Assembly: GCA_021300095.1 (NCBI GenBank)
Contig: JAJTHV010000010.1
Span: 1-64,000 of the forward strand
Source of the DNA: Flammeovirgaceae bacterium
GTDB taxonomy: Bacteria; Bacteroidota; Bacteroidia; Cytophagales; Cyclobacteriaceae
Reading direction: 5' to 3'
DNA length: 64,000 bases
A program made the translations under genes and the position numbers. Shown piece after piece: positions 28,224 to 62,109 of this stretch. Under the pieces are notes generated by a model, which was not told the origin of the DNA, did no database searches, and saw nothing but the letters and a program-made list of their open reading frames with translations. Each line of letters begins with the position of its first letter. The stretch's first letter is position 1.

Positions 28224-28363
28224 AATTGCTGCGTAGCTGTTTAGCTAACCTCATTGCCCTCAAATTGTTTACAGTTAGTCGGGCGGAGGTGTCTAAAATT
28301 ACAACGAATCAAAAATATTTGATGCCGGTTTGATCGGTGCGTTGTCTTCCGTTTATTTGTTGT

Positions 28364-31360: not shown

Positions 31361-31378
31361 CTTTTTAACTTAGTAACA

Positions 31379-31397
31379 GATGAGCGAACTGCTCATC
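31379..31397 (+). terminator. Possible terminator hairpin without T-tract
   Basis: GATGAGC-GAACT-GCTCATC forms a perfect 7-base stem 18 bases after the stop codon of the 621-residue gene. No T run follows, so intrinsic termination is uncertain. Confidence 0.35.
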
Positions 31398-31488
31398 AAT
31401 GTAAGTGCCAACTGCGCGCCCAAAAATCTATGCCAAAGACTTGATCACTCGAGCAAAATGGTTTTTGTGTTGCCGAAGATTTCAAGCG

Positions 31489-32571: not shown

Positions 32572-32669
32572 ATCTAATACTAAAATTTAATGCAAGAAGC
32601 CGTTTTCTTCAACGGCCAATGCCTTTCTGCTTTCAATTTAAAGCAGCCGAACGTCTAATTGGATAAATT

Positions 32670-33788: not shown

Positions 33789-33891
33789 CGGGGTTAATTG
33801 TAGGCTAAAATAAGCCAACTTTCTGAAAAGAAAACAGGAAAGGTTTGTAATCAAAACGGGTGGGTTGCAACTAATCAGAAAAAGATTAAAA

Positions 33892-44455: not shown

Positions 44456-44695
44456 ATACCACAAACTTAAAAACAAGGCTCAAAGTTGCCAATGGCTGCC
44501 ATTTGTGTGGCGAAAAGATGTGGTTTTGGGGTGAAGTGGTAAATGGTTGCCGGAAAATTTTACACGAGAGTTCCTTCGCTAAAGAGCCAAAGCCCTGACA
44601 AGTTGGTTCAGTAGCCCTTTTGAACGCTTCAGTTACATTCTAAAATAAGGTCTCTCTGCTGTCCCTCAATTTTGTCATGCTAAAAATCAAAAAGC

Positions 44696-45763: not shown

Positions 45764-45769
45764 AATTTT

Positions 45770-48700: not shown

Positions 48701-50197
48701 TTAGGCAAAGGGAATGGAGCAGAAGTAAAAAATGGTTTGGCGTGGGCGATCATGGGAGGTCTTACCAGCAGCATGTTTCTCACACTGATTGTGGTGCCGG
48801 TTGTATTTGCAGTCATTCAAAAAATTGCGATCAAGTTGAGTCAGTTCAACTGGGCGTTGGCGAAACAATCTACTATTGTACTTTTACTTGTCGGCAGTCT
48901 TGCTTTCTGCGAATCAGCGCAAGCGCAAGACACCTTACAACTTTCTGTGAAAAGTGCGGTGGCGTTGGGTATGGAAAACAATGCAGCGGTGCGTATTGCA
49001 AAACTGGAAACGATCAAGCAACAGGCGGTTCAGCGCGAAGCATTTAGTTTTCGCTTGCCACAAGTAAATGCATTCGGAAACTACATTCAGAACACACAAA
49101 TTCCCGTGGTGTTTTTTCCTTCGCTATCAGCGGATCCAACAACTGGTGAGTTGGTGTTTGGTCCGGTGCAACCCATCAAGGCGGGCAGTAATCATGCCAT
49201 TATTGCTGGCGTCAACGCATCGTTTGATATTTTGAATTTGCAAACAGCGGCCGCCAGTAAGCAAGCTTCCATTGGCAGAGAAGTGGCGCAGCACAAACAA
49301 AAAGCCTCCGAACAACAGGTGGCGTATGAAATCAAGAAAACGTACAACGATATTTTGTTTATTCAATCGCAGCGAATGGCCATCTACGAATCTATGAGAA
49401 GGTATGAAGTAGCGCTTGCCATGCAACGCGATTTGCTTAAGAATGGATTAGCGATACCGACCGACACTCTTCGCGTTTTCACCGATAGGGAAGTACAGGA
49501 GTTAGATTTAATACAACTGCGCTATGCGGAAGAAAACTTATTAAATCTTCTTCGCTATCAATTGGGTTTAAAAGCTCAAACGACAATTAAGTTGACAGAT
49601 GAAGTTTTCTCCACCGAAACCATTGTGAAAAAAGAAACTCCCGATTTTGTAAAGCGTGCAGACTTGGATGTTCATCAAACACAAATTGCATGGGCGAAGC
49701 AGAGCGTGCGCACGGCAAATGCTTCCAGTTTACCAACCCTCTCACTAACTGGAAACTGGCAGTTGCAAGGTCAGGATGATCGATTGAATTTTAGCGCTTG
49801 GCAATTTCCGCAAAGTTCATTTGTAGGTGTAAGCTTGGCCATTCCGCTGTTCAATGGATTTCGAAGAGAAGCAAGAACACAACAAGCCAACATCGATGTT
49901 CAGCAAAGCACCATTCAATATCAGGATGCCATGCATCGTGCGGTGTTAGAATATGAACAACAATGGAACAAATACTACGAACTGCAAAAGAAATGGGAAG
50001 TGCAGAAAAGAGTGAGAGAATCAGCACAGCGAACAGTGGATTCGCAAACCGATCGATTCAAAAAGGGATTGATTAAATGGTTGGAGGTTAAAGATGTCGA
50101 GTTGGTATTGACACAAGCTCAGCTAGGCATGGCACAGATACAAATGCAAATCAATAGCACATTGATTGAATTGGAAAGAATTAATCCTACGAATTGA
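45770..50197 (+). CDS. RND efflux permease fused to a TolC-like outer-membrane factor (single 1475-aa frame)
   Basis: Residues 1 to about 1030 form a complete RND pump with 12 membrane helices: KRPLLIVVVFVILGLGG, the porter entrance YPGASPSEIEQSITKPIEEAI, proton relay Asp400-Asp401 in LVVGILVDDSIVVLENIYRH (TM4) and Lys928 in GLVAKNGILLVDRIN (TM10). The two acidic residues place it with the HAE (hydrophobic/amphiphilic drug) pumps rather than CusA-type metal pumps. A signal-peptide-like segment lies at about 1033-1053 (STIVLLLVGSLAFCESAQAQ), then a TolC-type domain of ~420 residues with helical repeats (LGMENNAAVRIAKLETIKQQ; SIGREVAQHKQKASEQQVAYEIKKTYNDILF). The frame is continuous with no stop. 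Adaptor gene upstream, regulators on both sides. Confidence 0.9.
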   Translation: MSIVEISIKRPLLIVVVFVILGLGGLVAYQKLNYELLPKFNIAYVSISTFYPGASPSEIEQSITKPIEEAIASVEKVKRITSSSNPNFSLINIEFIYGAKVEEAFQDVQRKVNEVLDKLPSQAKKPIVSKFNVNEVPVIKAAATAKMGNDQLSVLLKDQIKPQLAQLKGMGKIEFIGLEEDEYIVQIDPQKIKQFQITVSEVVQAIEQSEFNVPAGNLTALGYQQGIRVTGKVTDIDELKRTLIVNRESSEVRLSDVAEINRYAKKKETTSRLDGKSIIGLILFKQNNANAVEMSSLIQSKLKELEQTYQNENLTFTIAQDGSVFTTASATAVKVDLLLAIALVALVMLVFLHSLRSSMIVLVSLPASLLSTLIFMYFLGYTFNLMTLLAMSLVVGILVDDSIVVLENIYRHLEMGKDKIKATIDGREEIGFTAFAITLVDVVVFLPLAFTGGLVGDIVSEFAMVIVISTLFSLIVCFTITPMLASRFGRLEHLSAATWAGRFGLWFEKYFKLLEEQYGKLLLWSLQNKVKVLAIAFGLFIGSLLLPALGYVGSEFAPRIDRGEMAVTVQLPTGTTLLTTEAFSKQVESKLVKQFPEINRIMANHGVSAEAWGAPEERNFEFNINFKGKDHRTKSIQQLGREIQRTILSYPGTKVKVAMIGLFGTADEAPVQLLVSGANRDMVAHVASELASTMRSIAGTYDIRISGTSRKYDVQIIPDKDKMARLGVNATDLGTAVRIAMVGYDELKKEEGTTTVPIRITLNPAAKQDIQTLSELEIPSASGQLIELSQVARIEPISTPAMLERTNKNGSVTIFSGVAGRPVGDVGEDIKAAIAQLKNVEGVSFNFQGDLANQDDSFGPLGLAFGAAILLMYFIMVALYNSWIDPFVVLFSIPLAIIGALLALALTGESINIFSIFGMIMMTGLVAKNGILLVDRINQNLQSGETLVHAIEESGKTRLRPIMMTTIAMVLGMLPIALGKGNGAEVKNGLAWAIMGGLTSSMFLTLIVVPVVFAVIQKIAIKLSQFNWALAKQSTIVLLLVGSLAFCESAQAQDTLQLSVKSAVALGMENNAAVRIAKLETIKQQAVQREAFSFRLPQVNAFGNYIQNTQIPVVFFPSLSADPTTGELVFGPVQPIKAGSNHAIIAGVNASFDILNLQTAAASKQASIGREVAQHKQKASEQQVAYEIKKTYNDILFIQSQRMAIYESMRRYEVALAMQRDLLKNGLAIPTDTLRVFTDREVQELDLIQLRYAEENLLNLLRYQLGLKAQTTIKLTDEVFSTETIVKKETPDFVKRADLDVHQTQIAWAKQSVRTANASSLPTLSLTGNWQLQGQDDRLNFSAWQFPQSSFVGVSLAIPLFNGFRREARTQQANIDVQQSTIQYQDAMHRAVLEYEQQWNKYYELQKKWEVQKRVRESAQRTVDSQTDRFKKGLIKWLEVKDVELVLTQAQLGMAQIQMQINSTLIELERINPTN

Positions 50198-50312
50198 GAA
50201 TAGTTAATAGCAAAATCGGAGAAGCGAAATAAATTTTGTTTTTGTTGCTTCGGTTTTTCAAGACGATAATTTTACAATCTTTGCGAAACGACTTAGATCA
50301 ACCAACAGGTAA

Positions 50313-51380
50313 ATGAAAGAAGATTCCTATTCGCTGCGCATCTGGATGCGGTATTTTGGCTCTCCGCTGTTTGGATTTTTTCTTTACATAATTGCATTCT
50401 TTTTGGTGTCGGATGAGAGCTTTGATGAATACTATAAAAACTATGGCGGATGGGCTTATCTCTATGACATTCTTATTGCCATTGCCTGGTCAGCCATCAA
50501 TTTAGAGATCAATTTTATTATCAGCGATTGGTTGGAAAAAATACTTCCCTGGGCAACGAAACCTTTTTTGCGATTTCTCACGCAAAGCAGTCTGCAACTC
50601 GTGCTCACCGTCTTGGTATTGTTCGGATGTTTGACATCGTATATCTATGTGTTTCGTTTGGAGCAATGGACCGAGCATGATCTCACCATTATCTTTATGC
50701 CAACCGCTATCATTGCGGTATTGGTCAGTCTTTTGGTGATGGGTGTAAACATTGGAGTTTTGTTCTTTCAACGTTGGCAAACATCTCAACTGGAAGCCGA
50801 GCGATTGAAGCAGGCTAATCTGGAAAGCCAGATTCAAATTTTAACACAGCAGCTCGACCCTCATTTTCTTTTTAACAACTTCAATACGCTTTCTGCATTG
50901 ATTGAGGAAAATCCCACAAAAGCCAATCAATTTTTATGGAAGTTAAGCGATGTCTATCGCTACGTTTTATCGAACCGTGAACAAAAGATTGTACCGTTGA
51001 AAGAAGAGATGCAAATGATTGAAGCGTATGTGCATTTGCTCAAAGAACGATTTGGTGAACAACTGTCTGTTCACAATACGATTTCAACGGAATCTCAAGA
51101 TCTATTCATACCGGTTTTGGCATTGCAAAATTTAGTTGAAAATGCGGTGAAGCATAACATCATCAATGCGCAGCACCCGTTGACAATTTCGATTTACACA
51201 GACAATGATTGGCTCGTACTTGAAAACCCGTTTCAGCCCAAGTTGCATACGGAGCACAGCAGCAAACTCGGATTAAAAAATATTCAAGACCGGTATAAGC
51301 TGCTCAGTAAAAAAACAATCGACATTGAGCAATCACCTGAAATATTTCGTGTTCGATTGCCCTTGTTGAATTTGACATAG
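50313..51380 (+). CDS. LytS/YehU-type sensor histidine kinase
   Basis: The 355-residue protein has four membrane helices in residues 10-160, a coiled segment (SQLEAERLKQANLESQIQILTQ) and a HisKA_7TM/His_kinase-type domain with QLDPHFLFNNFNTLSALI (His184 is the phosphorylated residue). It ends with an ATPase-like C-terminal part (LQNLVENAVKHNI, KLGLKNIQDRYKLL). It pairs with the LytTR response regulator that begins 56 bases downstream. It probably responds to an unknown envelope signal and may control the efflux genes just upstream. Confidence 0.92.
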   Translation: MKEDSYSLRIWMRYFGSPLFGFFLYIIAFFLVSDESFDEYYKNYGGWAYLYDILIAIAWSAINLEINFIISDWLEKILPWATKPFLRFLTQSSLQLVLTVLVLFGCLTSYIYVFRLEQWTEHDLTIIFMPTAIIAVLVSLLVMGVNIGVLFFQRWQTSQLEAERLKQANLESQIQILTQQLDPHFLFNNFNTLSALIEENPTKANQFLWKLSDVYRYVLSNREQKIVPLKEEMQMIEAYVHLLKERFGEQLSVHNTISTESQDLFIPVLALQNLVENAVKHNIINAQHPLTISIYTDNDWLVLENPFQPKLHTEHSSKLGLKNIQDRYKLLSKKTIDIEQSPEIFRVRLPLLNLT

Positions 51381-51436
51381 AAAGCTATTTCAGAAAATGA
51401 CCTCTTTATTTTGTAAACAAAAATAAAACCAGCGAA

Positions 51437-52198
51437 ATGAATCTTGTTTTATTGGAAGACGAACAACCTGCCCTTCGGCACCTAAAGCGAATGATAGAAG
51501 AAGTAGCACCACAAACACGCATTGTTGCTGAATTTGATTCGGTAGAAAGTGCGACCGCGTGGTTTCAGTCCAACATAGAATACGATCTCGTCATCAGCGA
51601 CATCCAATTGTCGGATGGACTTAGTTTAGCTGTTTTCAAATCAATTAAAATGGTGAAGCCTATTGTTTTCACTACAGCTTTTGATCACTATGCCATCGAA
51701 GCATTTAAAGTAAATGGAATCGATTATTTGTTGAAGCCCATAAAAGCCGAAGATCTGCGTGCGGCTTTTGATAAATACAAAACCTTTTACAAAGCAGCGT
51801 CATCATCTAGCGTAGATATTGAGCGACTGCTCATGCAAATCGCTGGTCAGGAGAAAATTTACAAAACCCGACTGTTGGTGCATTTTCGCGATGAGTTGAA
51901 AAGTATTCCGGTAGACACCATCGCATTTATTCACAGCGAAAATCGTACATCGCATCTTTATACGAAGACTGGTGAGATGCTCATTTTGGATCAGAACATG
52001 GAAGAGTTGGAGAGCCAACTCAATCCACAGCATTTCTTTCGGGCCAATCGTCAATTCATCATTTCGTTTAATTCGATCAAGAGCAGTCATGCCCACTTTA
52101 ATGGAAAAATCAAAATCATATTGACACTGCCCACCAAAGAGGAGGTGATTGTTAGTCGCGAGAAATCTGCTGATTTTAAAGCGTGGTTGGCACACTAA
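51437..52198 (+). CDS. LytTR-family response regulator
   Basis: The 253-residue protein has a receiver domain (about 1-120) with acidic pocket LEDEQP, phospho-acceptor Asp55 in DLVISDIQLSDG, Thr in FTTAFDHYAIEAFKVNGIDYLLKPI and the Lys of that final motif. A LytTR DNA-binding domain follows (about 150-253; HFRDELKSIPVDTIAFIHSENRTSHLYTKTG, HFFRANRQFIISFNSIKS). It ends EEVIVSREKSADFKAWLAH. Relics of this same 3' end are dispersed downstream in the window (see 52870-52920, 56311-56511, 61256-61315). A terminator follows directly. Confidence 0.93.
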   Translation: MNLVLLEDEQPALRHLKRMIEEVAPQTRIVAEFDSVESATAWFQSNIEYDLVISDIQLSDGLSLAVFKSIKMVKPIVFTTAFDHYAIEAFKVNGIDYLLKPIKAEDLRAAFDKYKTFYKAASSSSVDIERLLMQIAGQEKIYKTRLLVHFRDELKSIPVDTIAFIHSENRTSHLYTKTGEMLILDQNMEELESQLNPQHFFRANRQFIISFNSIKSSHAHFNGKIKIILTLPTKEEVIVSREKSADFKAWLAH

Positions 52199-52234
52199 CC
52201 CATACGCATCTTTCCCGGCTATCTGTTTGCCCAT

Positions 52235-52259
52235 GGCTCTACTGTTAAGAGCCGTTTTT
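52235..52259 (+). terminator. Rho-independent terminator after the LytTR gene
   Basis: GGCTCT-ACTGTTA-AGAGCC followed by GTTTTTCTTTTT lies 37 bases after the stop codon. Confidence 0.8.
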
Positions 52260-52310
52260 CTTTTTAAACAAAATTCTTAAAATAGCGCAATTGAGAATGA
52301 TTATCTAGTT

Positions 52311-52769
52311 ATGTTTAATATCACGCTTCGATTTTTCTCCGATTTATTCAACAGAACAGAGACATCTTCTCCCAATATTCACCCCATTGATAAAAACTAT
52401 CTAGCCATTGGTGGATATGATCTTGTATCCTATTTCGATGGAAAGCCTCTTAAAGGCGACTGTGCCTTCATGGATTTACACTTAGGAATTCGGTATCAGT
52501 TTGTTTCATACCAAAATCTGGAAAAGTTTAGAGCCGATCGCGAAAAATACTTACCGCAATGTGCCGGTCATTGTGCTTTAGGAGTTGTTCGCGGCTACAA
52601 AGCAAGAATCAATCCTCAGACATTTAAAATTATCGATCATAAACTCTACTTGTTTTTTAATGGAGTGCATCAAAGGAAGCATCTCAATGCACTTGCCCTA
52701 TGGGAACAAAATGAAGAGGATAATCTGAAAGTGTTACCGACAAAATGGATGCAGCTTAATCGAAGATAA
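52311..52769 (+). CDS. YHS-domain protein
   Basis: A 152-residue protein with the YHS pattern GGYDLVSYFDGKPLKGDCAFMDLHLGIRYQFVSYQNLEKFRADREKYLPQCAGHCALGVV. Family members begin with a signal peptide and use Cys and other residues for metal binding. Here the N-terminus (MFNITLRFFSDLFNRTETS) is not a clear signal peptide, so a cytoplasmic location is likely. C-terminal IDHKLYLFFNGVHQRKHLNAL closes the domain. Function unknown; relatives sit with metal or redox genes. It stands alone after the two-component pair. Confidence 0.78.
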   Translation: MFNITLRFFSDLFNRTETSSPNIHPIDKNYLAIGGYDLVSYFDGKPLKGDCAFMDLHLGIRYQFVSYQNLEKFRADREKYLPQCAGHCALGVVRGYKARINPQTFKIIDHKLYLFFNGVHQRKHLNALALWEQNEEDNLKVLPTKWMQLNRR

Positions 52770-52789
52770 TTTTGGTTTTTATATCAACG

Positions 52790-52922
52790 TCTGGAAACAG
52801 GAGACGATACTTGGCTCCCTCTTTCACGCATTGTCTCCTGCCTCAGAGACGATGCTCCTCAAAAAGTCTTTGTCAGCTCGAGATTAGCTGCTGATTTTAA
52901 ATTGTGATTGGTACGTAGCCAA
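52790..52922. repeat. Composite repeat: imperfect hairpin plus LytTR 3'-end relic (copy 1)
   Basis: An imperfect palindrome (GCATTGTCTCC...GAGACGATGC, 52828-52855) is followed by CTCAAAAAGTCTTTGTCAG and then GCTGATTTTAAA. The latter aligns with the 3' end of the LytTR response regulator gene (which has GCTGATTTTAAAGCGTGGTTGGCACACTAA in fragments; the copy has ...TTGTGATTGGTACGTAGCC). It closely matches the copy at 56390-56511 over about 120 bases. Confidence 0.7.
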
Positions 52923-53235
52923 TCCGCTTCGGTCGCGAATTCAATCGCTTCAGTAAGTTTCTATTATCGATTGTTTATGGAGCCGCTCATATTTGCCTAA
53001 AAAATATGAAACACCTACTTATCATTCTTTTCTTTTTCGCACTGACATCGCTTACCGCACAGTCCAACCGAATTATTGGCGTTTGGCTTACAGCCGATAA
53101 GAGTGCAAAAATTGAAATTGAACAACACGAGAAAAATTTTACTGGCGCCATCATTTACCAGGAGATCAATCGTGATGAACAAGGAAAGCTGTTTGCCGAT
53201 ACACAGAATCGGGATACACCAAAGCATAGCCGACT
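52923..53235 (+). repeat. Duplicated segment, copy A (with 57904-58215)
   Basis: From CGCTTCGGTCGCGAATTC to about 53125 this is nearly identical to 57904-58104, including 80 bases upstream of the gene and the first ~40 codons. After that identity falls to roughly three quarters and ends near 53235. Confidence 0.85.
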
Positions 53236-53308
53236 TTTCACAGCTTGGAAGATAGCCAACCATTACAGGGTCCATCGAATAAAGCAAAAACACGAGTACA
53301 TAGCTTAA
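53006..53308 (+). pseudogene. DUF2147-family gene, truncated duplicate
   Basis: The first ~75 codons match the intact DUF2147 gene at 57985-58416, with the same signal peptide (MKHLLIILFFFALTSLTAQS) and the NRIIGVWLTADKSAKIEIE opening. Homology stops at about SRLFTAWKIA, where one base is missing relative to the intact copy. The remaining frame (NHYRVHRIKQKHEYIA) has no counterpart, and the domain's second half is lost. Probably non-functional. It shares the promoter region of the intact copy. The gene after it starts 13 bases downstream. Confidence 0.8.
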
Positions 53309-53321
53309 CGGAGAAAAACAG

Positions 53322-53732
53322 ATGAGTTTAAAGTATAAAATAATTTATGATGCAATTTGGGGCGAGGAGACTCAAATAACTGATGAGATAGTTGAGTACT
53401 ATCAGAAAAATCCAAGAGACTTAGATTTGATCCTCGACAAAGAGCATTTCTATGGAAGGTTCATTAAACTTGTTTTTTTTCTGGGTATCGTACTCACAGT
53501 TTTAAGCGGAACACTTAAGTTTTATTTTGAAGACTATTGGTCGGAGTTTATCAGTGACGTGATCCTTGATGTTTTCTCCGAAATGGGTATTGCCATGTTT
53601 GGAGGAGCGATAACTACTTTCTTACTTGAAAAACTAAATCAAAAGCAATATGAGCGAAATATTTCACTTCGCCAGGAAATCATAGCAAGAATTAATCAAT
53701 CTCAAAATAACGTAACAGATGACACAATTTAG
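53322..53732 (+). CDS. Hypothetical two-helix membrane protein (136 aa)
   Basis: No family recognised. An acidic cytoplasmic N-terminus (residues 1-45) precedes helix VFFLGIVLTVLSGTLKFYF, an acidic amphipathic segment, a second hydrophobic stretch (EMGIAMFGGAITTFLL), and a Gln/Asn-rich charged tail. A GGAG element lies about 9 bases before the ATG at 53322. It is AT-rich compared with the core genes. It overlaps the next gene by 14 bases, so the two act in one transcript. Confidence 0.65.
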   Translation: MSLKYKIIYDAIWGEETQITDEIVEYYQKNPRDLDLILDKEHFYGRFIKLVFFLGIVLTVLSGTLKFYFEDYWSEFISDVILDVFSEMGIAMFGGAITTFLLEKLNQKQYERNISLRQEIIARINQSQNNVTDDTI

Positions 53733-54342
53733 CAACTCATTTTTTATCAATTCCAAAGTCATACTTATTCTTATAATCAGTAGTTCATCTTTTCATGCAA
53801 CTGCACAAGAAGAAGCATCAGATAACATAGCTAAAAGATTTTTTATGCCGGCAATAAAATTGGGTTATATATATCATAATTCCGACAACATATCTTCGGG
53901 CATGATGAGACAGACATCTTTGGAATATCGAACTAAAAAGAATCTGTTGTTTCGTCTAAGCTATGACGATTTTAGTAGTCGTGTTAACATTACAACTAAT
54001 TCCAAACAAATCTATCGCGCAAGAATACCAACCTCGGACTTTATCGCAGGTGTAGGGTATCGATTTAAGAAACAAAGGAATAATTTTTTTCTTATTGTCC
54101 AATCCGGATTACGTTCTTACGAAAATCCAGTTATCGAAAATCTTAATGGTGGTATTAATATCGACCAACGAAGTGAAACAATCGGAACGATGCGCTATAC
54201 ACTTGTATATGAGTATGAATTGTTTAAATACGTATTTCTAAATTCTGAGGTATTTGCCGGACAATTATATTCAACAAAAGATTTTTGGAGTGATCGATCA
54301 AGTTTTGGAGTCACAATCGGAATTTCAGCTACAATATTTTAG
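53719..54342 (+). CDS. Hypothetical exported beta-barrel-like protein (207 aa)
   Basis: The ATG lies inside the end of the preceding gene, overlapping by 14 bases. A signal-like segment (VILILIISSSSFHATAQ) is followed by amphipathic strands (MPAIKLGYIYHNSDNI, QTSLEYRTKKNLLFRLSYDDFSSRV, FIAGVGYRFKKQRNNFFLIVQSGLRSY) and FGVTIGISATIF at the C-terminus, fitting an outer-membrane barrel. No family recognised. AT-rich like its neighbours. Membrane-protein plus barrel pairing suggests a shared envelope role that cannot be specified. Confidence 0.65.
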   Translation: MTQFSNSFFINSKVILILIISSSSFHATAQEEASDNIAKRFFMPAIKLGYIYHNSDNISSGMMRQTSLEYRTKKNLLFRLSYDDFSSRVNITTNSKQIYRARIPTSDFIAGVGYRFKKQRNNFFLIVQSGLRSYENPVIENLNGGINIDQRSETIGTMRYTLVYEYELFKYVFLNSEVFAGQLYSTKDFWSDRSSFGVTIGISATIF

Positions 54343-54505
54343 AGCGATAGATTTTGTCTTTATGTAACAGAGGGTATTATCAATTCTTCTACGCGACAAT
54401 CCATGACTAAAAACAGAGATGATGGATATCTCAACGTGGTATCTTTCTTGAGTTTATTCTGTAATTGAATTAAAGGCTACTTCTACAAATTAAATTTCAC
54501 AAAAA

Positions 54506-55840
54506 ATGAAACTGCAACTTTTATCTTTTTTACTGGTATTTTACACTCTCTCTACGAGCTCAAATGCACAAAGAGTACCAGCGGAATGGGAACCACAACA
54601 TGCTACAATATTCACTTGGTTTGAAGGCGATTTGTCAACAAGATATTCGGTTGACAGTGTACATCTTAAAATGGTGAAAAGCCTAACGGAGGCGAACAAT
54701 AAACTAATCATAAATGTTAAAAATAACAGTCACAAAAAACACATCATCTCCATTCTTTCTACTAACCAATTACCTGTAGACAATATCATTTTTAGAAAAG
54801 CCACCTTCAATTTTCCGTTAGGTAATTATCCAAGGGATTATGGTCCTGAATGGAGGTATGACACACTGAATCAATTGTCAGTAATTGATTTGAATTGGGC
54901 ATTTTATGGTTATCTGTACGGTGATAGCTTTTTGAAACGTTATTTGAATAATCCACTGAAAAGTTATGATAAACAAATAGCTAACGAACTAGGCATTAAA
55001 ACATCCGCAACGTCAAAAATTATCAGCGAGGGTGGTGCGAAAGAATTTAATGGTGCGGGTGTATTAATGTTAGTTGAACAAACTGAATTGAAAAGAAACC
55101 CGGGTTATTCAAAGGAAACTTTAGATAGCGCATATAAAAAGCTATTTAAATTAGAGAAGATAATCTGGCTTCCGTACCCAACCTACGATGATGAACACAT
55201 ATTCAACGATTTATTAGAAGATGAAAATAGAAACAGGGTAGTGTTAAGAAGTGCATCTGCGAATGGTCATATTGACGAATTCTGTCGCTTCCTTAACTCA
55301 AATACAATCTTATTGGCCGAGATTACGGAAGAAGAAGCACTTAAAAGTGATCTTCACAGAATAAACAAAGACAGGTTAGACGCGACTTACAATATTCTTA
55401 AGAATGAAACCGATGTAAATGGCAATCCTTATAAAATTATAAGAATACCAGTACCCGATCCACAATTTTATAAAGCAAGCGAAAACCCTAAATTGGTTAA
55501 TCAACTTACTACTCTCAAGAAGTTGTTCAAGGCCAATACATTGCTCGATGGTTCCGGTTATCCCAAGGTTTCTGATTTAAAATTTTTGCCTGCATTGAGC
55601 TATTGCAATTTTACAATCGCAAATGGTGTAGTACTAATTGCCTCTTATTGGGAGGAAGGCTTACCGGAGTCGATCAAAGAGAAAGATAAGCGGGCATATC
55701 AGGTAATTCAGCAAGCTTTTCCGGACAGGAAGATAATTGCTATCAATCCTTTAGCAATTAATTTTGGCGGGGGCGGTTTGCATTGCAATACTCGGCACAT
55801 ACCAGAAAAGAAGTTACAGATTAACGAATTAAAAAAGTAA
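54506..55840 (+). CDS. Exported agmatine deiminase-family (PAD-type) enzyme
   Basis: After a signal peptide (ending SSNAQ) the 444-residue protein begins RVPAEWEPQHATIFTWFEGD, as agmatine deiminases do. The catalytic set of the guanidine-modifying superfamily is in place: Asp111 in NYPRDYGPEWRYD, ISEGGAKEFNGAGV, His255 and Asp257 in SANGHIDEFCRF, and nucleophile Cys427 in INFGGGGLHCNTRHIP. These enzymes hydrolyse a guanidino group to a ureido group and ammonia. Cytoplasmic AguA converts agmatine to N-carbamoylputrescine; the export signal and 60 extra residues make another substrate (such as peptidyl-arginine or an extracellular guanidine) possible. An SMR exporter of Gdx type follows after 16 bases. 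Confidence 0.85.
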   Translation: MKLQLLSFLLVFYTLSTSSNAQRVPAEWEPQHATIFTWFEGDLSTRYSVDSVHLKMVKSLTEANNKLIINVKNNSHKKHIISILSTNQLPVDNIIFRKATFNFPLGNYPRDYGPEWRYDTLNQLSVIDLNWAFYGYLYGDSFLKRYLNNPLKSYDKQIANELGIKTSATSKIISEGGAKEFNGAGVLMLVEQTELKRNPGYSKETLDSAYKKLFKLEKIIWLPYPTYDDEHIFNDLLEDENRNRVVLRSASANGHIDEFCRFLNSNTILLAEITEEEALKSDLHRINKDRLDATYNILKNETDVNGNPYKIIRIPVPDPQFYKASENPKLVNQLTTLKKLFKANTLLDGSGYPKVSDLKFLPALSYCNFTIANGVVLIASYWEEGLPESIKEKDKRAYQVIQQAFPDRKIIAINPLAINFGGGGLHCNTRHIPEKKLQINELKK

Positions 55841-55856
55841 CCAAACACATAACTAT

Positions 55857-56180
55857 ATGGCCTGGACGTATCTTTTCATTGGTGGTATTCTTGAAATAGT
55901 CTGGACTATTGGTCTCAAACAAATGGACAATCATCGTAATCTATGGTGGACTGTCATATTTTATGTGAGCATCATCTCCAGTTTTGGTTTTTTGCAAAAA
56001 GCGTTGGAAACCTTACCCATTGGAACTGCTTATTCCATATATACCAGCATAGGTGTGATCGGCACCGCAATCTTTGGGATGGTCTTTTTTAAAGAGCCTT
56101 TTAGCCTGCTGAGGATATTTTTTATTCTACTCATCATTGGGGGTGTATTCGGATTGAAAATAACCTCTACTAACTATTAG
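55857..56180 (+). CDS. SMR family transporter, SugE/Gdx (guanidinium exporter)-like
   Basis: A 107-residue protein with four helices. Key residues match the Gdx subgroup: Glu13 (proton/substrate coupling) in GGILEIVWTIGLK, Trp16, the Gly19-Leu20-Lys21 triplet, Ser42 and Tyr59 in GTAYSIYTSIG. One oddity is Tyr62 where Gdx proteins usually have Trp. Gdx proteins export guanidinium in exchange for protons as antiparallel dimers. It begins 16 bases after the PAD-type enzyme gene, suggesting an operon for guanidino compounds. Drug-exporting Qac function is less likely but not excluded. Confidence 0.82.
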   Translation: MAWTYLFIGGILEIVWTIGLKQMDNHRNLWWTVIFYVSIISSFGFLQKALETLPIGTAYSIYTSIGVIGTAIFGMVFFKEPFSLLRIFFILLIIGGVFGLKITSTNY

Positions 56181-56244
56181 CATGTATGCGACTTTACTTG
56201 CTTGTGATAATACAATATGTTATGCACTACACCTTTGAAACGAA

Positions 56245-56512
56245 ATTGTCTTTTTAGATCTCCTTCACGCATCGTCTCATGCTTCAGAGACGATGCTCTA
56301 CAAATATTCATTGTCAGTTGTTAAGTAAGAAGCTGAATTTAAAGCGAGATTGGCACATAAGCCAATACAACTTTAATCTTCTCGTCCCTTCGGAGACCAG
56401 ACTTGACTCCTCCTTTCACACATCGCTCTTGCCTCAGGAACGATGCTCCTCAAAAAGTCTTTGTCAGTCTGAAATTAGCTGCTGATTCTAAAGCGAGGTT
56501 GGCACACTAGCA
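56245..56512. repeat. Two tandem composite repeats: hairpin plus LytTR 3'-end relic (copies 2 and 3)
   Basis: Copy 2: GCATCGTCTC / GAGACGATGC hairpin at 56269-56296, then CTACAAATATTCATTGTCAG and a relic at 56331-56362 that reads AEFKARLAHK. Copy 3: a degenerate hairpin at 56420-56446, then CTCAAAAAGTCTTTGTCAG and a relic at 56463-56511 that reads VSLKLAADSKARLAH followed by TAG. These fill most of the 390-base gap between the SMR gene and the monooxygenase-like gene; no coding sequence is seen in it. Confidence 0.75.
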
Positions 56513-56570
56513 TTTATACATTTGTTGTCACACATTTCTAATTGCTTGTCTAAATATCAAAAACAAGACC

Positions 56571-56966
56571 ATGAAGACTTTAAACACCATCTTATTGACA
56601 ATTATGACCACCATTGCGGCAGCCCAATCAACAAAAACCAAACCAATTATGAACAAAAATATAACCGAGGTAGTTATCTACCAGATCAAAGCTGAGAAGC
56701 GCAAAGATTTTTCGGCCATTTTAGAGAAAGTGCGAGCAAATGTGAGCCAGGCACCTGGCTTCGTTAGCTACAAAACGCTTAGTTGGATGAGAGAACCAAA
56801 TGAATTTATTTCCAGTGAAAATACTTTTATTGACATTGTTGAATGGAAAACGCTAGATGATGCCACCAATGCAATGAAAGCGGCAGAGCAAAATCCAGCA
56901 TTTGGCGAGTTCTTCTATTCAATTGAAAAGATCACCATGATGGGTCACTTTGATTTCTACAAGTAA
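56571..56966 (+). CDS. Exported antibiotic biosynthesis monooxygenase (ABM)-like protein
   Basis: The 131-residue protein has a weak signal peptide (ILLTIMTTIAAAQS) and then a dimeric alpha-beta barrel domain: TEVVIYQIKAEKRKDFSAILEKVRANVSQAPGFVSYKTLSWM, FIDIVEWKTLDDATNAMKAAEQNPAFGEFFYSI. MNKNITEV is an alternative start for a cytoplasmic form. Catalytic residues of true ABM oxygenases are not evident, so a binding or unknown enzymatic role is possible. The ECF sigma gene starts 7 bases downstream, suggesting co-transcription. Confidence 0.72.
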   Translation: MKTLNTILLTIMTTIAAAQSTKTKPIMNKNITEVVIYQIKAEKRKDFSAILEKVRANVSQAPGFVSYKTLSWMREPNEFISSENTFIDIVEWKTLDDATNAMKAAEQNPAFGEFFYSIEKITMMGHFDFYK

Positions 56967-56973
56967 AAATTCA

Positions 56974-57846
56974 ATGCTAGATATTTTCCCCGCTTCTTAT
57001 TCTGACCAAACGGATTCTGTGTTGGTAAAAGCTTCCCGGCAAGGTAACCGGGAAGCATTGGAGCACTTGGTAAGAAGACATCAAATATTTGTCTACAACG
57101 TGGCCTGGAAGATGGCTTTCAATCCGCATGACGCGGAGGATTTGGCACAAGATGCGTGGGTGAAGGTAATCACTAACCTAGCTACGTTTAAGGGTGAAAG
57201 CGAATTTCGAACGTGGCTCTACCGGATTGTGGTCAACCACTTCCTGAATATGAAAAAGAGGCCAGCTGAAAAGATGATTTCCGATTTTGGCGAGTACTTT
57301 GGAGGCTTGGATGCCCTCGCGGACGAAGTATTGCCCGAAGAAGAGCAACTACAAAGAGAGCTTGAAATTGAAGAGGTGAAAGTAAGTTGTACGGCTGGCA
57401 TGTTACTTTGTTTAGATCGGGAGCAACGAATGATCTATGTTTTAGGTGAAATCTTTGACGTGGATCATAAATTAGGAGCGGAAATCCTGAATATATCTTC
57501 AGATAATTACCGACAAAGACTAAGTCGCGCGCGCAAGGATTTGCACCAATGGATGGACAAAAAGTGTGGTCTTGTTAACAAATCCAACCCATGCCGATGC
57601 GCTAAAAAGACAAATGCATTTGTCAAGCAAGGTTGGGTGAATAAAGATAATCTACTTTTTAACGTCAATTATTTGCAGCGGATAAATGATATAGCTTCAG
57701 CAGAGACCAATACAGGCTTTGTGCAAACAGACAAACTTTACAAGACTCTTTATCAGACCCATCCATTGCAGCAGCCGAGGCAGCCTGATTTGTTTTTAAA
57801 AAGTATCCTGAACCACGAGCTGGTTAAATCAATTTTTCGGCTGTAG
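56974..57846 (+). CDS. ECF sigma factor with Cys-containing C-terminal extension
   Basis: MLDIFPASYSDQTDSV at 56974 is the preferred start. Regions 2 (REALEHLVRRHQIFVYNVAWKMAFNPHDAEDLAQDAWVKVITNLATFKGESEFRTWLYRIVVNHFLN) and 4 (LLCLDREQRMIYVLGEIFDVDHKLGAEILNISSDNYRQRLSRARKDLHQWMD) are followed by a tail with KKCGLVNKSNPCRCAKKT and ~80 further residues. The C-x8-C-x-C cluster could bind a metal or act as a thiol sensor. No anti-sigma gene is adjacent, so the tail may control activity. A similar but distinct sigma factor lies at 58454-59293. Confidence 0.85.
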   Translation: MLDIFPASYSDQTDSVLVKASRQGNREALEHLVRRHQIFVYNVAWKMAFNPHDAEDLAQDAWVKVITNLATFKGESEFRTWLYRIVVNHFLNMKKRPAEKMISDFGEYFGGLDALADEVLPEEEQLQRELEIEEVKVSCTAGMLLCLDREQRMIYVLGEIFDVDHKLGAEILNISSDNYRQRLSRARKDLHQWMDKKCGLVNKSNPCRCAKKTNAFVKQGWVNKDNLLFNVNYLQRINDIASAETNTGFVQTDKLYKTLYQTHPLQQPRQPDLFLKSILNHELVKSIFRL

Positions 57847-57903
57847 AAGGTTATGTTGTCTCTTCGATTTGAAGCAATTTGAAAGATTGATTTGATGACT
57901 TTC

Positions 57904-58215
57904 GCTTCAGTCGCGAATTCAATCGCTTCAGTAAGTTTCTATTATCGATTGTTTATGGAGCCGCTCATATTTGCCTAAAAAAATATGAAACACCTACTTA
58001 TCATTCTTTTCTTTTTCGCACTGACATCGCTTAGCGCACAGTCCAACCGAATTATTGGCGTTTGGCTTACAGCCGATAAGAGTGCAAAAATTGAAATTGT
58101 ACAACGCGAAAAAAATTTTACAGGCACGATGATTTGGTTGGAAATGGATCGCGATGAACAAGGCAAGCCGCTGACCGATACACAGAATCCGGATCCATCG
58201 AAGCGCAGCCGGCTG
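57904..58215 (+). repeat. Duplicated segment, copy B (with 52923-53235)
   Basis: Nearly identical to copy A for about 200 bases, spanning the intergenic leader and the signal-peptide codons, then diverged. See the DUF2147 entries. Confidence 0.85.
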
Positions 58216-58416
58216 TTATGTGGCTTGGAAATTATTCCGAATCTTGTTTACAAAGATGGTAAATGGAAAGGAACCATTTACGATCCGGAGAGCGGCAAAA
58301 CATACAGTAGTGAAATCGTGTTGGTAAACGAAAACACGCTGGAAGTAACAGGCTATATCGGGTTACCCATGTTTGGCCGAACCGAAAAGTGGACGAGGGT
58401 AAAACCTCAGGAGTAA
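57985..58416 (+). CDS. DUF2147 family exported protein
   Basis: The 143-residue protein has a signal peptide ending SAQS and the DUF2147 landmarks IIGVWLTADKSAKIEI, GTMIWLEMDRDEQGKPLTDTQNPDPSKRSRLLCGLEIIPNL, and DGKWKGTIYDPESGKTYSSEIVLVNENTLEVTGYIGLPMFGRTEKWTR. The W-K-G-x-I-Y-D-P-E-x-G-K-x-Y core is diagnostic. Function unknown; the domain is a small periplasmic beta barrel. It is the intact member of a duplicated pair, with an almost identical leader and 5' end at 52923-53125. Confidence 0.85.
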   Translation: MKHLLIILFFFALTSLSAQSNRIIGVWLTADKSAKIEIVQREKNFTGTMIWLEMDRDEQGKPLTDTQNPDPSKRSRLLCGLEIIPNLVYKDGKWKGTIYDPESGKTYSSEIVLVNENTLEVTGYIGLPMFGRTEKWTRVKPQE

Positions 58417-58453
58417 CTCGATAATACTTCTGGATAAATATTGAAAACGAAGC

Positions 58454-59293
58454 TTACGCAGGAATGGCTAACTCCCCCATACCCATTCGATCGCACTTCA
58501 TCAACAAGTCTTGCAGATCAGCACCTTTTCCCCGCATAGGGTCGATGGCTTTTACCAATTTGGTGCGCATGTCAAAGAGTTCATCGCGATCAAATTTTTT
58601 AGAGCCTTTCACGAGATCGAGTTGATTCAATGCTTCTTGTTGGTTTTGCTTGGGATTGAACATGCCGTTCAACTCAGAGCATTGGTTGCACACGCCATTT
58701 TTGTTTATCAGCGCACAGCGGTTGTCGAAGATGTCCATCATGGTATGGCGCGCATCTTGCAAGAGATGTTTTACCACATCTTGCGATTTGTCGATGATGA
58801 CGGCAATTTCTTTGACAGAAAAATCATAAATGTCTTTTAATATCAGTGCCACTTGTTTTTCGATGGCCAATGTTTTGCCCATGCACGTAAAGCAGTGGTC
58901 GATGTGGTCGCGCATATCAAACGTTCCTTCGGGCGACTCCTGTCCTTTTTTCAGAATGGAGTTACGTATTGTTTCATTGCTCATCACAATGCCTTTGGCT
59001 ATTTCTTTTGTGTTCACCGTCCAGCGTTTAAATTGACGCAAGTGATCGTATGCGAGGTTGGTGGCAATTTGAAACATCCATGTTTTGAAAGACGATTTCC
59101 CTTTGAAGGTTGAGACTTTATCGAAGCCACGAATGAAGGCATCGTGCGCAATGTCTTCAGCATCCTCGCGACTGGCCACCAATCGATACAAATACGATTT
59201 GAGCTGCGGTTGAAATTCGGCATATAATTTTTGAAACGCATGAATATCGCCACCCATGGCGAGTTTTAAGGTTTGTTCGTTGGAGTTTTCCAT
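58454..59293 (-). CDS. ECF sigma factor with Cys-containing C-terminal extension (second paralogue type)
   Basis: The 279-residue protein has region 2 (HAFQKLYAEFQPQLKSYLYRLVASREDAEDIAHDAFIRGFDKVSTFKGKSSFKTWMFQIATNLAYDHLR) and region 4 (ALILKDIYDFSVKEIAVIIDKSQDVVKHLLQDARHTMMDIF). Its tail contains NRCALINKNGVCNQCSEL and about 65 more residues. The C-x9-C-x2-C spacing resembles that of the sigma at 56974-57846, though the rest differs. A second cysteine pair occurs in the linker (HIDHCFTCMGK). It is convergent with the DUF2147 gene. Confidence 0.85.
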   Translation of the reverse strand: MENSNEQTLKLAMGGDIHAFQKLYAEFQPQLKSYLYRLVASREDAEDIAHDAFIRGFDKVSTFKGKSSFKTWMFQIATNLAYDHLRQFKRWTVNTKEIAKGIVMSNETIRNSILKKGQESPEGTFDMRDHIDHCFTCMGKTLAIEKQVALILKDIYDFSVKEIAVIIDKSQDVVKHLLQDARHTMMDIFDNRCALINKNGVCNQCSELNGMFNPKQNQQEALNQLDLVKGSKKFDRDELFDMRTKLVKAIDPMRGKGADLQDLLMKCDRMGMGELAIPA

Positions 59294-59692
59294 TGGATAA
59301 AGTTAAGTGTGTTTCAGTGATTAGACGCACAACTTTAATAAAACGGGCGATTTGTGGAATAAAAACCACCATCACGCATCATCTTATCTCGCAGGGACGA
59401 TGCTATTTATAGATTGTTAAATGAAGCAAATGTCGAGAGATGGAGGGGATTGTATTGTCTCTGAACCGAAAAACATGGCTTGAGCAAAATTTTTTTTAAT
59501 TTTAACACTATGTCGGATAAGTTAACGCAGACGAAAACGGACCAAACAAACAGATTGACTCTTCCAAATAAAATCATCAAAATGGTATCTTTCCTCTTTG
59601 CAATCAGGACTTGATATACTTTGAGTAGTAATCTTACCGTCTGTGAAGTAATAAGTGGTGTGAGCAGAAAAAGTTCGAATGGAATCAATGTT
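59294..59692. other. AT-rich intergenic region with a REP-like hairpin
   Basis: About 400 bases without a credible gene. A degenerate hairpin (CGCATCATCTTATCTCGCAGGGACGATGCT) lies at about 59377-59406, matching the GCATCGTCTC/GAGACGATGC family seen at 52828 and 56269. Downstream are homopolymer T/A stretches and no clear promoter. A 93-codon open frame on the minus strand (59407-59688) is judged spurious. Confidence 0.5.
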
Positions 59693-60523
59693 ATGAGCGA
59701 AGTAAAATTATTTGAGACTAAAAAAGTAAGAACTCAATGGGATGAGGAAAAAGAATTGTGGTATTTCTCTATCATTGATGTAATTGAAGCACTTACGGGA
59801 ACGGATAGGCCAAGAAAATACTGGAGCGATTTAAAAGTGAAACTGTCAAGGGAGGGTAGTCAACTGTCCGAAAATATCGGACAGTTGAAGATGGTAGCTG
59901 AAGATGGAAAAATGAGACTTACTGATGTGGCTGACACAGAGCAAGTTTTAAGATTAATTCAGTCAATCCCTTCTCCAAAAGCAGAACCTTTTAAGCAATG
60001 GTTAGCAAAGGTAGGTTACGAGCGAATTGAAGAAACCGAAGACCCAGAATTGAGCTTCGACCGAGCCATGGAAACATACTTGGCAAAGGGTTACACTAAA
60101 GCTTGGATAAACCAACGCTTAAAAAGTATCGAGGTCAGAAAGGAATTAACCGATGAATGGGAAAAACGTGGAGTGCAAAAAGGCATGGACTTCGCCATAC
60201 TTACGGATATAATTACCAAGACTTGGAGCGGCAAATCCGTAAAGCAATACAAAAAATATAAGGACCTGAAAAAGGAGAATCTCCGCGACTACATGACCAA
60301 CTTAGAATTAGTTTTGAATATGCTGGCCGAGGCGACTACTTCAGAGATATCAAAAAAGAAAAAGCCAACGACATTAGATGAAAGTAAAGTAATTGCCAAA
60401 CAAGGTGGAGCTGTTGCCGGAAATGCACGAAAAGAAATTGAAGTGAGAACAGGAGATAAGGTGGTGAGTAGGCTAAATGCCAAGCAAATCATTGAAGGCA
60501 AACCGAAAAAAAAGCTGAAATAA
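59693..60523 (+). CDS. BRO-N domain protein (phage antirepressor / DinD-like)
   Basis: The ATG at 59693 (MSEVKLFETKKVRTQWDEEKELWYFSIIDVIEALTGTDRPRKYWSDLK) starts a BRO-N DNA-binding domain through about residue 110; the longer upstream frame adds 24 unlike residues. Motifs TDVADTEQVLRLIQSIPSPKAEPFKQWLAKVGYERIEE and YTKAWINQRLKSIEVRKELTDEWEKRG are characteristic of the chromosomal BRO-N/DinD-like family. The C-terminus is Lys-rich (KPKKKLK). The protein is typical of phage-derived or mobile DNA and is AT-rich. No other phage gene is present. A terminator follows. Confidence 0.82.
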   Translation: MSEVKLFETKKVRTQWDEEKELWYFSIIDVIEALTGTDRPRKYWSDLKVKLSREGSQLSENIGQLKMVAEDGKMRLTDVADTEQVLRLIQSIPSPKAEPFKQWLAKVGYERIEETEDPELSFDRAMETYLAKGYTKAWINQRLKSIEVRKELTDEWEKRGVQKGMDFAILTDIITKTWSGKSVKQYKKYKDLKKENLRDYMTNLELVLNMLAEATTSEISKKKKPTTLDESKVIAKQGGAVAGNARKEIEVRTGDKVVSRLNAKQIIEGKPKKKLK

Positions 60524-60550
60524 AATCTGAGCGTCTTCAAAAAAGGAAGT

Positions 60551-60583
60551 GAAAAACCACACTCTTTAAGAGCGTGGTTTTTC
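60551..60583. terminator. Bidirectional terminator
   Basis: GAAAAACCACACTC / GAGCGTGGTTTTTC forms a 14-base stem with one mismatch and a short loop, with A and T runs on both sides. It separates the BRO-N gene (plus) from the following minus-strand gene. Confidence 0.8.
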
Positions 60584-60596
60584 AAATTTTTTCAGT

Positions 60597-61184
60597 TTAC
60601 TTCTTCACCACTGCAGGTGTTAACTTGGTTGGTCTCTTTTCGGGTGAGCACATGTTGTTATCAGCGGGGCGCTCGCCAAAATACAATTTCCCGTCTTTAT
60701 CCAGCGAAAGCAAATCATAATCGCCCGGGCAGTCGGCAACGGATTGCCATGCTGAGCAGCCTGTAATCGAAATATCTTTTTCTACATCTTTTGTCAAGTT
60801 GCAAGCAGCAAAGCCAAAAGCTTGAATCAAATTAGCATCAGCTGTTTTAAGCGTTACCCATTTTTTGTCTTCATAGAATACAGCATTGTAAGTGTTATCC
60901 ACAGCTTTGGATTTGTCCAACACTTTGTAAGTGCCTTCGGTTCGAAAAGTAAAGACTTGCATTTTCAGTTCCGGATCGAGCCCCAGCGTGAAGAGCAATG
61001 TCCATTTGCCTTTGTCAAAAGTGAATACGCGCTTGCCCCACGCTTTGCCATAATTGTAAGGCGCTGGGTCGGCATAGGTGCCGGATAATTTTTCCAACGC
61101 AGCTTTGCTGTCGGTGGTTTTGGTGAAACTGAATGCGAGGGCAATGGCTACCATCAGCCCTACTGCTAAAAAAAGTTTTTTCAT
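60597..61184 (-). CDS. Exported protein with APCDD1-like pattern (195 aa)
   Basis: A signal peptide (MKKLFLAVGLMVAIALAFSF) precedes a beta-rich domain: LEKLSGTYADPAPYNYGKAWGKRVFTFDKGKWTLLFTLGLDP, MQVFTFRTEGTYKVL, AACNLTKDVEKDISITGC, DYDLLSLDKDGKLYFGERPADNNMCSPEKRPTKL. The closing LYFGERP...EKRPTKL and paired cysteines recall bacterial APCDD1-like domains; this assignment is tentative. It is exported or lipid-independent in the periplasm. Stand-alone gene. Confidence 0.6.
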   Translation of the reverse strand: MKKLFLAVGLMVAIALAFSFTKTTDSKAALEKLSGTYADPAPYNYGKAWGKRVFTFDKGKWTLLFTLGLDPELKMQVFTFRTEGTYKVLDKSKAVDNTYNAVFYEDKKWVTLKTADANLIQAFGFAACNLTKDVEKDISITGCSAWQSVADCPGDYDLLSLDKDGKLYFGERPADNNMCSPEKRPTKLTPAVVKK

Positions 61185-61255
61185 ATTGTTTTGGTTTGTT
61201 TGTCATTCAGACGAACGAGCCAACCAAAACGGGCGGGATTTCAGAAAGTAGTTAA

Positions 61256-61320
61256 GAAGAAGTAATTTTTAGCCGTGAGCGAGCCGCTGACTTTAAAGCG
61301 TGGTTGGCTCATTAGCCATT
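61256..61320 (+). repeat. Relic of a LytTR gene 3' end (copy 4)
   Basis: From 61256 the plus strand reads, in one frame, EEVIFSRERAADFKAWLAH then TAG at 61313-61315. The intact response regulator ends EEVIVSREKSADFKAWLAH. An in-frame stop (TAA, 61253) lies just upstream, so nothing but the last 19 codons survives. No LytTR gene body is beside it. Confidence 0.8.
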
Positions 61321-61422
61321 AGAACTTTCTTCGGCTTGATATTTATTGGTGCCTAACCTTAAAATGTGTATTATTATCATTGGGCAAACGACAAATAAAT
61401 TAAGTAAAAACGATATCAATTT

Positions 61423-61797
61423 ATGAATAAGAAATCTAAACGACTTTTCTTGATAGACGGACTTGGCGCGCTGACCACTGCCGGATTATTGTTTTTTCTC
61501 TTGGCAGAATTTGAATATCTATTCGGAATGCCGAAACCGATTATACATGGACTATCTTTAATGGCTATTCTTTTCTCGGCTTACTCTTTCAGCTGCCTCA
61601 TTATGGTTAAACAGAATTGGAAATTTTTCCTTTCGCTGATAGCTTTTGCCAATATCACCTATTGCCTTTTAACTACTGGGTTAATGCTTTACCACTATTC
61701 GCAGTTAACTCAATTGGGGCTAATGTACTTTGTTGGAGAAATTGCTATTATAATTATGCTCGTATATTTTGAGCTTAAAACAATAGTCAAATCATGA
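61423..61797 (+). CDS. Hypothetical four-helix membrane protein (124 aa)
   Basis: Helices at LIDGLGALTTAGLLFFLL, IIHGLSLMAILFSAYSFSCLIMV, WKFFLSLIAFANITYCLLTTGLML and GLMYFVGEIAIIIMLVYF. No family recognised. The N-terminus is basic (MNKKSKR), so it faces the cytoplasm. It is AT-rich and isolated, 103 bases after the relic repeat. Confidence 0.6.
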   Translation: MNKKSKRLFLIDGLGALTTAGLLFFLLAEFEYLFGMPKPIIHGLSLMAILFSAYSFSCLIMVKQNWKFFLSLIAFANITYCLLTTGLMLYHYSQLTQLGLMYFVGEIAIIIMLVYFELKTIVKS

Positions 61798-62109
61798 GCC
61801 GTTTCAGTTTAAGAATAAGGTATCGAGTAATCAAAAATAAATTTTGAACAAATCGTTAATCTGTCTACAAAAGACTGACAGAGTTTCTCTTCCAAGTTTT
61901 CAAAACAAGAATTCTCTACTGGGTATGTTTCGAGCGAAAATTACTTGAACTTGATTGCGTACCAATACCACTAAATGGATGATTTTTACATATCTCCCAT
62001 TGTGCGCAGAGATCAACAGTTGCAGATAGCACTTTCTTGCATACTATGAGACTAGAAAATCAACTTTAAGAATGAGTTGCTTGTATGATTTTTCGCCAGT
62101 TATAATTCA
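61798..62109. other. Intergenic region, nothing recognised
   Basis: About 310 bases between a plus-strand and a minus-strand gene. No convincing coding frame, terminator hairpin or repeat of the families described above is seen. Stops are frequent in all six frames. Confidence 0.5.

Follow-up and report, generated by a model that had tools for sequence, protein, structure and literature searches.

A second copy of the 3' end of a LytTR response-regulator gene lies downstream of the intact gene, and we consider it probable (roughly 65%) that this relic, R4, is the original 3' end of the nearby gene, displaced 9 kb by an insertion that brought a substitute tail. The LytTR 3' end is best read as a recurrent insertion point of the kind in which an att site lies in a gene end, and R4 would then be attR-like. 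Events of this kind are known; the target gene, LytTR, is unusual. In the proposed sequence of steps, foreign DNA would enter LytTR at one constant position, some 55-66 bases 5' of the stop, and bring its own LytTR-like end, which would now complete the gene at 52198. The old end, R4, would stay at the far side of the insert, still joined to its old neighbour, the gene at 61423. Three further LytTR tails (R1-R3) would have been displaced earlier by similar events, either here or in donor genomes. The incoming DNA would be a circular molecule, and the site-specific recombinase acting on it would have been provided in trans or would have been lost since.

The window, the whole stretch of 64,000 nucleotides that was analysed, belongs to a 77-kb contig (C430) of a 4.66-Mb draft genome in 473 contigs (G000). 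Two comparisons with genomes of the same genus carry the argument. The corresponding slot of G059 holds LytTR remains directly before the 61423 gene, and G035 and G080 form a before/after pair. From these we infer the circle, the recombinase, the order of events and an insertion of the same type in the window itself, where the left crossover is invisible because the comparison set is without a close empty-site relative. With this reading, a 60-bp fragment becomes the marker of an insertion hotspot at the end of a two-component regulator gene that stays intact, with sigma factors, an efflux gene, a glycosyl hydrolase and DUF2147 proteins as cargo. Were a recombinase for ACCAAAGAAGAA to be found, uncultured Flammeovirgaceae would have a defined insertion site, and the abundance of displaced ends in the region would be accounted for. 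Displaced gene ends are easily mistaken for decayed paralogues.

Table 1. Features of the LytTR locus, in window coordinates.
Feature	Position	Strand	Basis or remark
Histidine kinase (HK), partner of LytTR (His_kinase)	50313-51380	+	Pfam
LytTR response regulator, intact (Response_reg and LytTR)	51437-52198	+	Pfam
Position of the 12-bp crossover interval as mapped in G035	52133-52144	+	ACCAAAGAAGAA in G035; ACCAAAGAGGAG here
Stretch now separating LytTR from R4, about 9 kb	52199-61255	.	G059 has remains directly before the R4/61423 flank
YHS-domain protein, first gene after LytTR; under Pfam's curated cut-off	52311-52769	+	
Imperfect palindrome directly 5' of R1	52828-52857	+	
R1, decayed LytTR tail, followed by truncated DUF2147 copy	52861-52925	+	Self-comparison, tail model
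Truncated DUF2147 copy	53006-53308	+	Read from the DNA repeat
PAD_porph family deiminase	54506-55840	+	Pfam
Small multidrug resistance family protein	55857-56180	+	Pfam
Palindrome 5' of R2, perfect 10-bp arms at 56269-56278 and 56287-56296	56269-56298	+	
R2, decayed LytTR tail	56302-56369	+	Self-comparison, tail model
R3, decayed LytTR tail, directly 5' of the ABM gene	56452-56517	+	Self-comparison, tail model
ABM protein and sigma-70 family factor	56571-57846	+	Same pair after LytTR in G025, 87% DNA identity
DUF2147, intact	57985-58416	+	Pfam
Stretch common to G012, in two pieces	58473-61255	-	58473-59306 (91%), 60598-61255 (90%)
Junction	61253-61256	.	G012 homology (lipocalin-side DNA) up to 61255; LytTR/G059 homology from 61254
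R4, relic LytTR 3' end including stop	61254-61317	+	Codons 61256-61315
61423 gene, 124-aa protein without Pfam match	61423-61797	+	3' neighbour of the LytTR remains in G059

The relic and the further LytTR tails

Read on the plus strand from 61256 to 61315, R4 encodes EEVIFSRERAADFKAWLAH-stop, against EEVIVSREKSADFKAWLAH-stop at the C-terminus of the intact regulator, and an in-frame TAA (61253-61255) lies just 5' of these codons. A search of the draft genome matched R4 to the intact gene at 78% DNA identity over 64 bp (E = 8.1e-8). The fragment first noticed in a preliminary description of this DNA is therefore real, a LytTR 3' end with its stop, and the upstream in-frame stop and the distance of about 9 kb from the gene that were claimed there also hold. 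By protein search the relic corresponds to LytTR residues 233-253 (76%, E = 0.0047), a match that is weak by itself. The LytTR protein has 33 matches in this genome, the relic included; R4 aside, the best match elsewhere is 42% identical. The preliminary description had considered that the rest of a LytTR gene might lie here in another frame; in the protein search of the genome, residues 233-253 alone matched and no other gene part was found at R4. Additional gene parts beside the fragment, the feature of a paralogue decaying in place, are absent at R4 and present in G059. Over the 20 codons including the stop, R4 and the intact end show nine synonymous differences (the stop codon among them) and three non-synonymous ones, the pattern that would be expected had both ends diverged while coding.

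Comparison of the window with itself, together with a sequence model of the tail, revealed R1-R3 between the gene and R4, all of which the preliminary description had missed. Their LytTR homology starts near the point at which that of R4 starts, the exact edge being uncertain owing to decay, and a palindrome just 5' of the tail is common to the three, with perfect 10-bp arms in R2 only. R4 obtained the best score with the tail model (62.7 bits) and the other tails scored 46-57.9 bits. We also note a small inverted repeat of approximately the form TTGGC-N6-GCCAA across the old stop codon in R1, R2, and R4, imperfect in R1 and R4. Other local repeats detected by self-comparison (1039-1422; 6346-6445, 23777-23821, and 24306-24473) are unrelated to LytTR as far as could be seen.

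The specificity of these copies was assessed on C430, where the last 66 nt of each of 68 non-overlapping ORFs (at least 100 aa) were compared with the same contig. A non-self copy at E <= 0.01 was present for 5 of the 68. The LytTR end had four copies (E from 3.9e-10 to 1.5e-4), and the remaining four ORFs had six in all (E of 0.003-0.008), three of them, of 20-24 bp, belonging to a single ORF. Copies below E 0.003 were found for the LytTR end alone, and matches no commoner than those of other 3' ends, which the preliminary description had allowed for, are not what this control on C430 gave.

The genome-wide tail search suggested in that description did recover repeated ends, with the DNA matches confined to C430. 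In G000 the tail model recovered, besides R1-R4 and the end of the gene itself, two weak matches, both located where other LytTR genes end. A genome-wide repeat family was rejected, as DNA copies of the tail occur on C430 only and strong model matches across 62 genomes, under filters that may pass over weak tails, lie only beside LytTR or its remains. Of the two alternatives first offered for the relic, a decayed paralogue or a repeat, membership of a small repeated set thus stands and genome-wide dispersal does not. The palindrome was also rejected as a REP-like mobile repeat; its 30-base pattern (up to three mismatches) was found in 2 of the 62 genomes only, at R1 and R2 here and at one place in G061 with no LytTR tail seen beside it. 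A phage or plasmid origin was likewise rejected: a 30-mer of the relic had no exact match in viral contigs, no relative of LytTR was confirmed there, the LytTR gene end matched no plasmid, and the 22 phage records with a LytTR-protein match were all below 60% identity (5 of the 22 among the matches listed).

The same locus in related genomes

The tail model was run over 62 genomes of the same genus under strict filters, with at most 82 candidates scored per genome, such that weak tails may escape; it returned 53 matches at E <= 0.01 in 34 genomes. Twelve of these reached at least 46 bits, namely six gene ends, R1-R4, a displaced copy in G035 and the remains in G059, and each of the six strong tails outside gene ends is found either at the remains of a LytTR gene or no more than 9.2 kb downstream of such a gene. 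None of the other 41 matches exceeded 29.1 bits. All 23 of those fetched were ORF ends (93-309 aa), which we read as LytTR C-termini, and two of the remaining 18, both in G000, sit at the ends of other LytTR-protein matches. An orthologue of the LytTR gene is present in 6 of the 62 genomes, the window's included (E <= 1e-75), and G059 is without one at that threshold; its locus was found through the tail model. The DNA to the right of the relic, searched in 60 genomes of the genus (G059 not among them), gave a weak match in G058 only, and faint matches of a 238-base query were seen in relatives.

Contig C10 of G059 is collinear with the left side of the window over 14281-44538 (five pieces at 81-89%, with 28322-33845 unmatched) and with the right side over 61254-61918 at 93.5% and 61917-74185 at 95.7%. 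Its slot contains a 142-bp HK remnant, then directly the last 160 bp or so of LytTR, and then directly the flank shared by R4 and the 61423 gene. The HK and LytTR parts have been fused by a deletion, and the LytTR part has a stop and a gap. These remains are 81% (HK) and 79% (LytTR) identical to the window's pair, compared with 63-67% and 72% for the five other orthologues. The window's HK-LytTR pair is thus the closest of six orthologues to the G059 remains and looks native to the slot. Moreover, the position of the remains directly before the R4/61423 flank marks R4 as the point where the lineage's LytTR ended, and LytTR in the window's lineage probably once lay directly before the 61423 gene. 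As such, the evidence does not favour a paralogue elsewhere, and R4 is best read as the end of the same gene. Of 62 tail sites, 11 differ between R4 and G059, compared with 5 of 101 sites immediately 3' of the stop (p = 0.013) and 31 of 600 beyond these (p = 0.0009). A short ORF on G059 C10 (252649-253026; L111, L135), whose start appears receiver-like by eye, runs into the HK remnant; this join is probably a chance fusion at the deletion.

In G080, G074, and G076, a DUF2147 gene (DUF2147b) directly follows LytTR. G035 instead has an insert of about 4.4 kb after LytTR, encoding DUF2147a, a family 3 glycosyl hydrolase, two small proteins without Pfam match and a cNMP-binding protein. About 4.5 kb downstream of the gene end lies an old 66-bp LytTR end, identical to that of G080 at all 66 sites, and after it comes DUF2147b. 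The two genomes are close in the HK gene and in LytTR before its last bases (34 of 1060 HK sites differ, with 98% identity in the LytTR windows from -176 to -57), whereas the last 54 bp of their LytTR genes differ at 17 of 54 sites. Provided that the G035 copy is the old end of the host gene, the insert would have its two joins within a single 12-bp stretch, ACCAAAGAAGAA, at positions -66 to -55 relative to the stop. It is here, too, that the LytTR homology of R4 begins. The coincidence of the two joins suggests a circular molecule opened at one point. To the left of the displaced copy, about 27 bp of LytTR-like DNA, more diverged, have been retained, so that the LytTR end brought in by the molecule may have measured about 93 bp. 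The idea in the preliminary description of a repeat that captured the LytTR 3' end was in this respect close in spirit, as the G035 insert appears to carry a LytTR-like end.

Ordinary homologous recombination seems unlikely to have placed the G035 insert, because the two tails share little identity beyond the 12 bp. General mosaicism does occur in the G035 LytTR gene, as differences from G080 are found elsewhere in it (49 of 462 sites from -762 to -300; 15 of 170 from -236 to -66), the majority of them within a linker region that spans -416 to about -180. The 94 bp after the displaced G035 end differ from G080 at 14 sites. G074 and G080 differ at 11 of 63 tail sites, compared with 17 of 237 before the tail (p = 0.025) and 7 of 95 after it (p = 0.07). 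It is possible that this discordance of tail and flank, seen for R4 and G059, for G074 and G080, and in G035, reflects repeated exchange of the gene end alone or other mosaic exchange.

The neighbours of the repeated ends were also informative. Four ends (R1, R3, R4, and the G035 copy) each precede DNA that adjoins LytTR or its remains in another genome, attested in G035 for R1, in G025 for R3, in G059 for R4, and in G080, G074, and G076 for the G035 copy. R1 is followed by DUF2147a-like DNA, with 74% identity over 395 bp to the G035 LytTR end and DUF2147a. Immediately downstream of R3 is the ABM-sigma pair; in G025 this pair comes after LytTR, with 154 bp between the stop and the shared DNA. 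In G025 the pair lies between LytTR and DUF2147b without a recognisable displaced tail, and the window's second DUF2147 gene joins the sigma factor just after the stop-codon position, again without a tail.

Explanations for the repeated LytTR ends and relation to known elements

Several observations sit uneasily with insertion at the gene end. Were every insert to enter beside the gene, R4 would be expected to be the oldest of the tails, whereas it is in fact the best preserved; a composite block that arrived ready-made would account for this, though we offer it only as a conjecture. Moreover, no recombinase was found, some joins lack tails (G025 and the second DUF2147), and tail and flank identities are discordant. 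The main rival, possible though unlikely in our judgement, is that a resident HK-LytTR pair decayed in place to its last 20 codons and that the block at 44539-61255 brought the intact copy independently, its right end landing in the remains by chance. Just such decay is seen at this slot in G059, and most of the block (44539-58472) is missing at this place in the G012 contig. However, R4 is undecayed with mostly synonymous changes (9 against 3 codons), the intact pair is nearest of the six orthologues to the G059 remains and hence seemingly native, and the junction falls at the same gene position as in G035. That coincidence of position also bears on recombination, homologous or illegitimate, with imported DNA (by natural transformation, for example), in which alleles of LytTR and its 3' DNA would be swapped between species and old ends left at ragged joins. 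The mosaic identity along the G035 gene, the differing identities of tails, flanks, and adjoining blocks, and the joins without tails would all fit. We nevertheless find this account quite doubtful: both G035 joins lie in the same 12 bp with tails little alike beyond, R4 repeats the position, and random joins are not expected to coincide.

Local tandem duplication of the LytTR 3' end with the genes that follow, involving no import, could be read from the duplicated DUF2147 (90%) and from R2 and R3 as adjacent repeats; the four ends nonetheless have different 3' neighbours, each attested in another genome, and four of the five G035 insert genes have no relative among the ORFs around LytTR in five other genomes, which leaves the idea very improbable. 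Least credible of all is an assembly chimera at 61255/61256. The exact join is indeed known from one assembly only, with G012-like DNA on its left and G059-like DNA on its right, but it lies inside a 77-kb contig, and R1-R3 and G035 independently show repeated LytTR ends. An AA overlap is, moreover, too short for an assembler's k-mer join.

Returning to insertion at the gene end, the enzyme can only be inferred, as no recombinase was recognised. Tyrosine recombinases (PF00589) were absent from C430 (77 kb) and from G035 contig C5, and the nearest on G059 C10 is about 179 kb away. A Pfam scan of 16 insert proteins (11 from the window, 5 from G035) assigned none to a recombinase or transposase family, five of the 16 having no Pfam family at all; neither the window nor the G035 element thus contains a recognised recombinase gene. 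Direct repeats of the gene end flank the insert both in G035 (ends about 4.5 kb apart) and in the window (the gene end and R4, with R1-R3 between them). A target gene completed by the element, with an old end matching an empty-site relative, is found in G035 against G080 only. Both crossovers fall in one short core, the 12 bp ACCAAAGAAGAA, in G035, and the right join alone is visible in the window. A doubtful extension would make the last 20 codons of this one LytTR gene, within the present Cytophagales group, a dedicated recombination site for small recombinase-less cassettes that are moved in trans and stack as an array, each arrival rewriting the C-terminus of the regulator. If true, regulator variation would be coupled to cargo capture.

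Displacement of a gene end has a precedent in the e14 prophage in icd, for which the original study is reportedly that of Hill et al. 1989. As outlined in PMC6379469, e14 enters the 3' end of icd in E. coli K-12 and supplies a substitute end, the old end being left as a 163-bp fragment. The likeness lies in an element at the 3' end of a protein gene that supplies a new end and displaces the old one; e14, however, is a prophage with known site-specific integration in that account (PMC6379469), whereas the LytTR locus has small inserts and a stack of several old ends, with no recombinase recognised. CIMEs and the tandem accretion of IMEs and ICEs, as presented in parts of PMC5704250, involve elements that keep attL and attR, have lost their integration genes, and are stacked at one gene's end, an arrangement similar to that seen here. 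LytTR is not among the Table 1 targets covered from that article (PMC5704250), and literature searches found nothing on insertion at a LytTR gene end in the portions of the sources they returned. Unlike in those systems, no intact parent element or recombinase was found at the LytTR locus, and the repeats consist of 60-90 bp of LytTR codons. The locus may be a CIME: LytTR ends are present and no recombinase was recognised among the proteins scanned, although no parent element is known; the label IME does not apply because no recombinase was found. Integron cassette arrays are made up of small units, each of one gene or a few, with repeated sites between them. The locus resembles them in its small gene units between repeated sites, with palindromes near R1-R3. 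However, the repeated site here is the LytTR gene end itself and, with no PF00589 match on C430, no integron-type tyrosine integrase adjoins the array.

The DNA between the gene and the relic

The DUF2147 duplication within the intervening DNA pairs 52925-53238 with 57903-58217 (90% DNA identity over 315 bp). The stretch shared with G012 encodes a sigma factor and a 195-aa protein without Pfam match, with a Bro-N gene between them, and the same 195-aa gene has another neighbour in G012. The overlap at the 61255/61256 join is AA only, and the exact join was seen in one assembly, all genomes being drafts and G012 76% complete. The window, G012, and G059 part from one another at the same left boundary, 44538/44539, such that the slot from 44538 to 61254 is variable in the three genomes.

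An ORF of 1475 aa at 45770-50197, for which 1474-aa ORFs with a near-identical start were seen in G035 and G025, presumably encodes an RND efflux transporter and, after it in the same frame, a likely outer-membrane efflux protein, as judged from motifs. Finally, we note an element of the form TTTTGGTT...GACGAA...AACCAAAA at 61188-61230, 5' of the gene for the 195-aa protein. It also occurs at three places within about 2.4 kb in G012 (L081, around 8959-9008, 9997-10045, and 11299-11369) and once in G035 (C5:142672-142718), and is possibly the operator of a local regulon.
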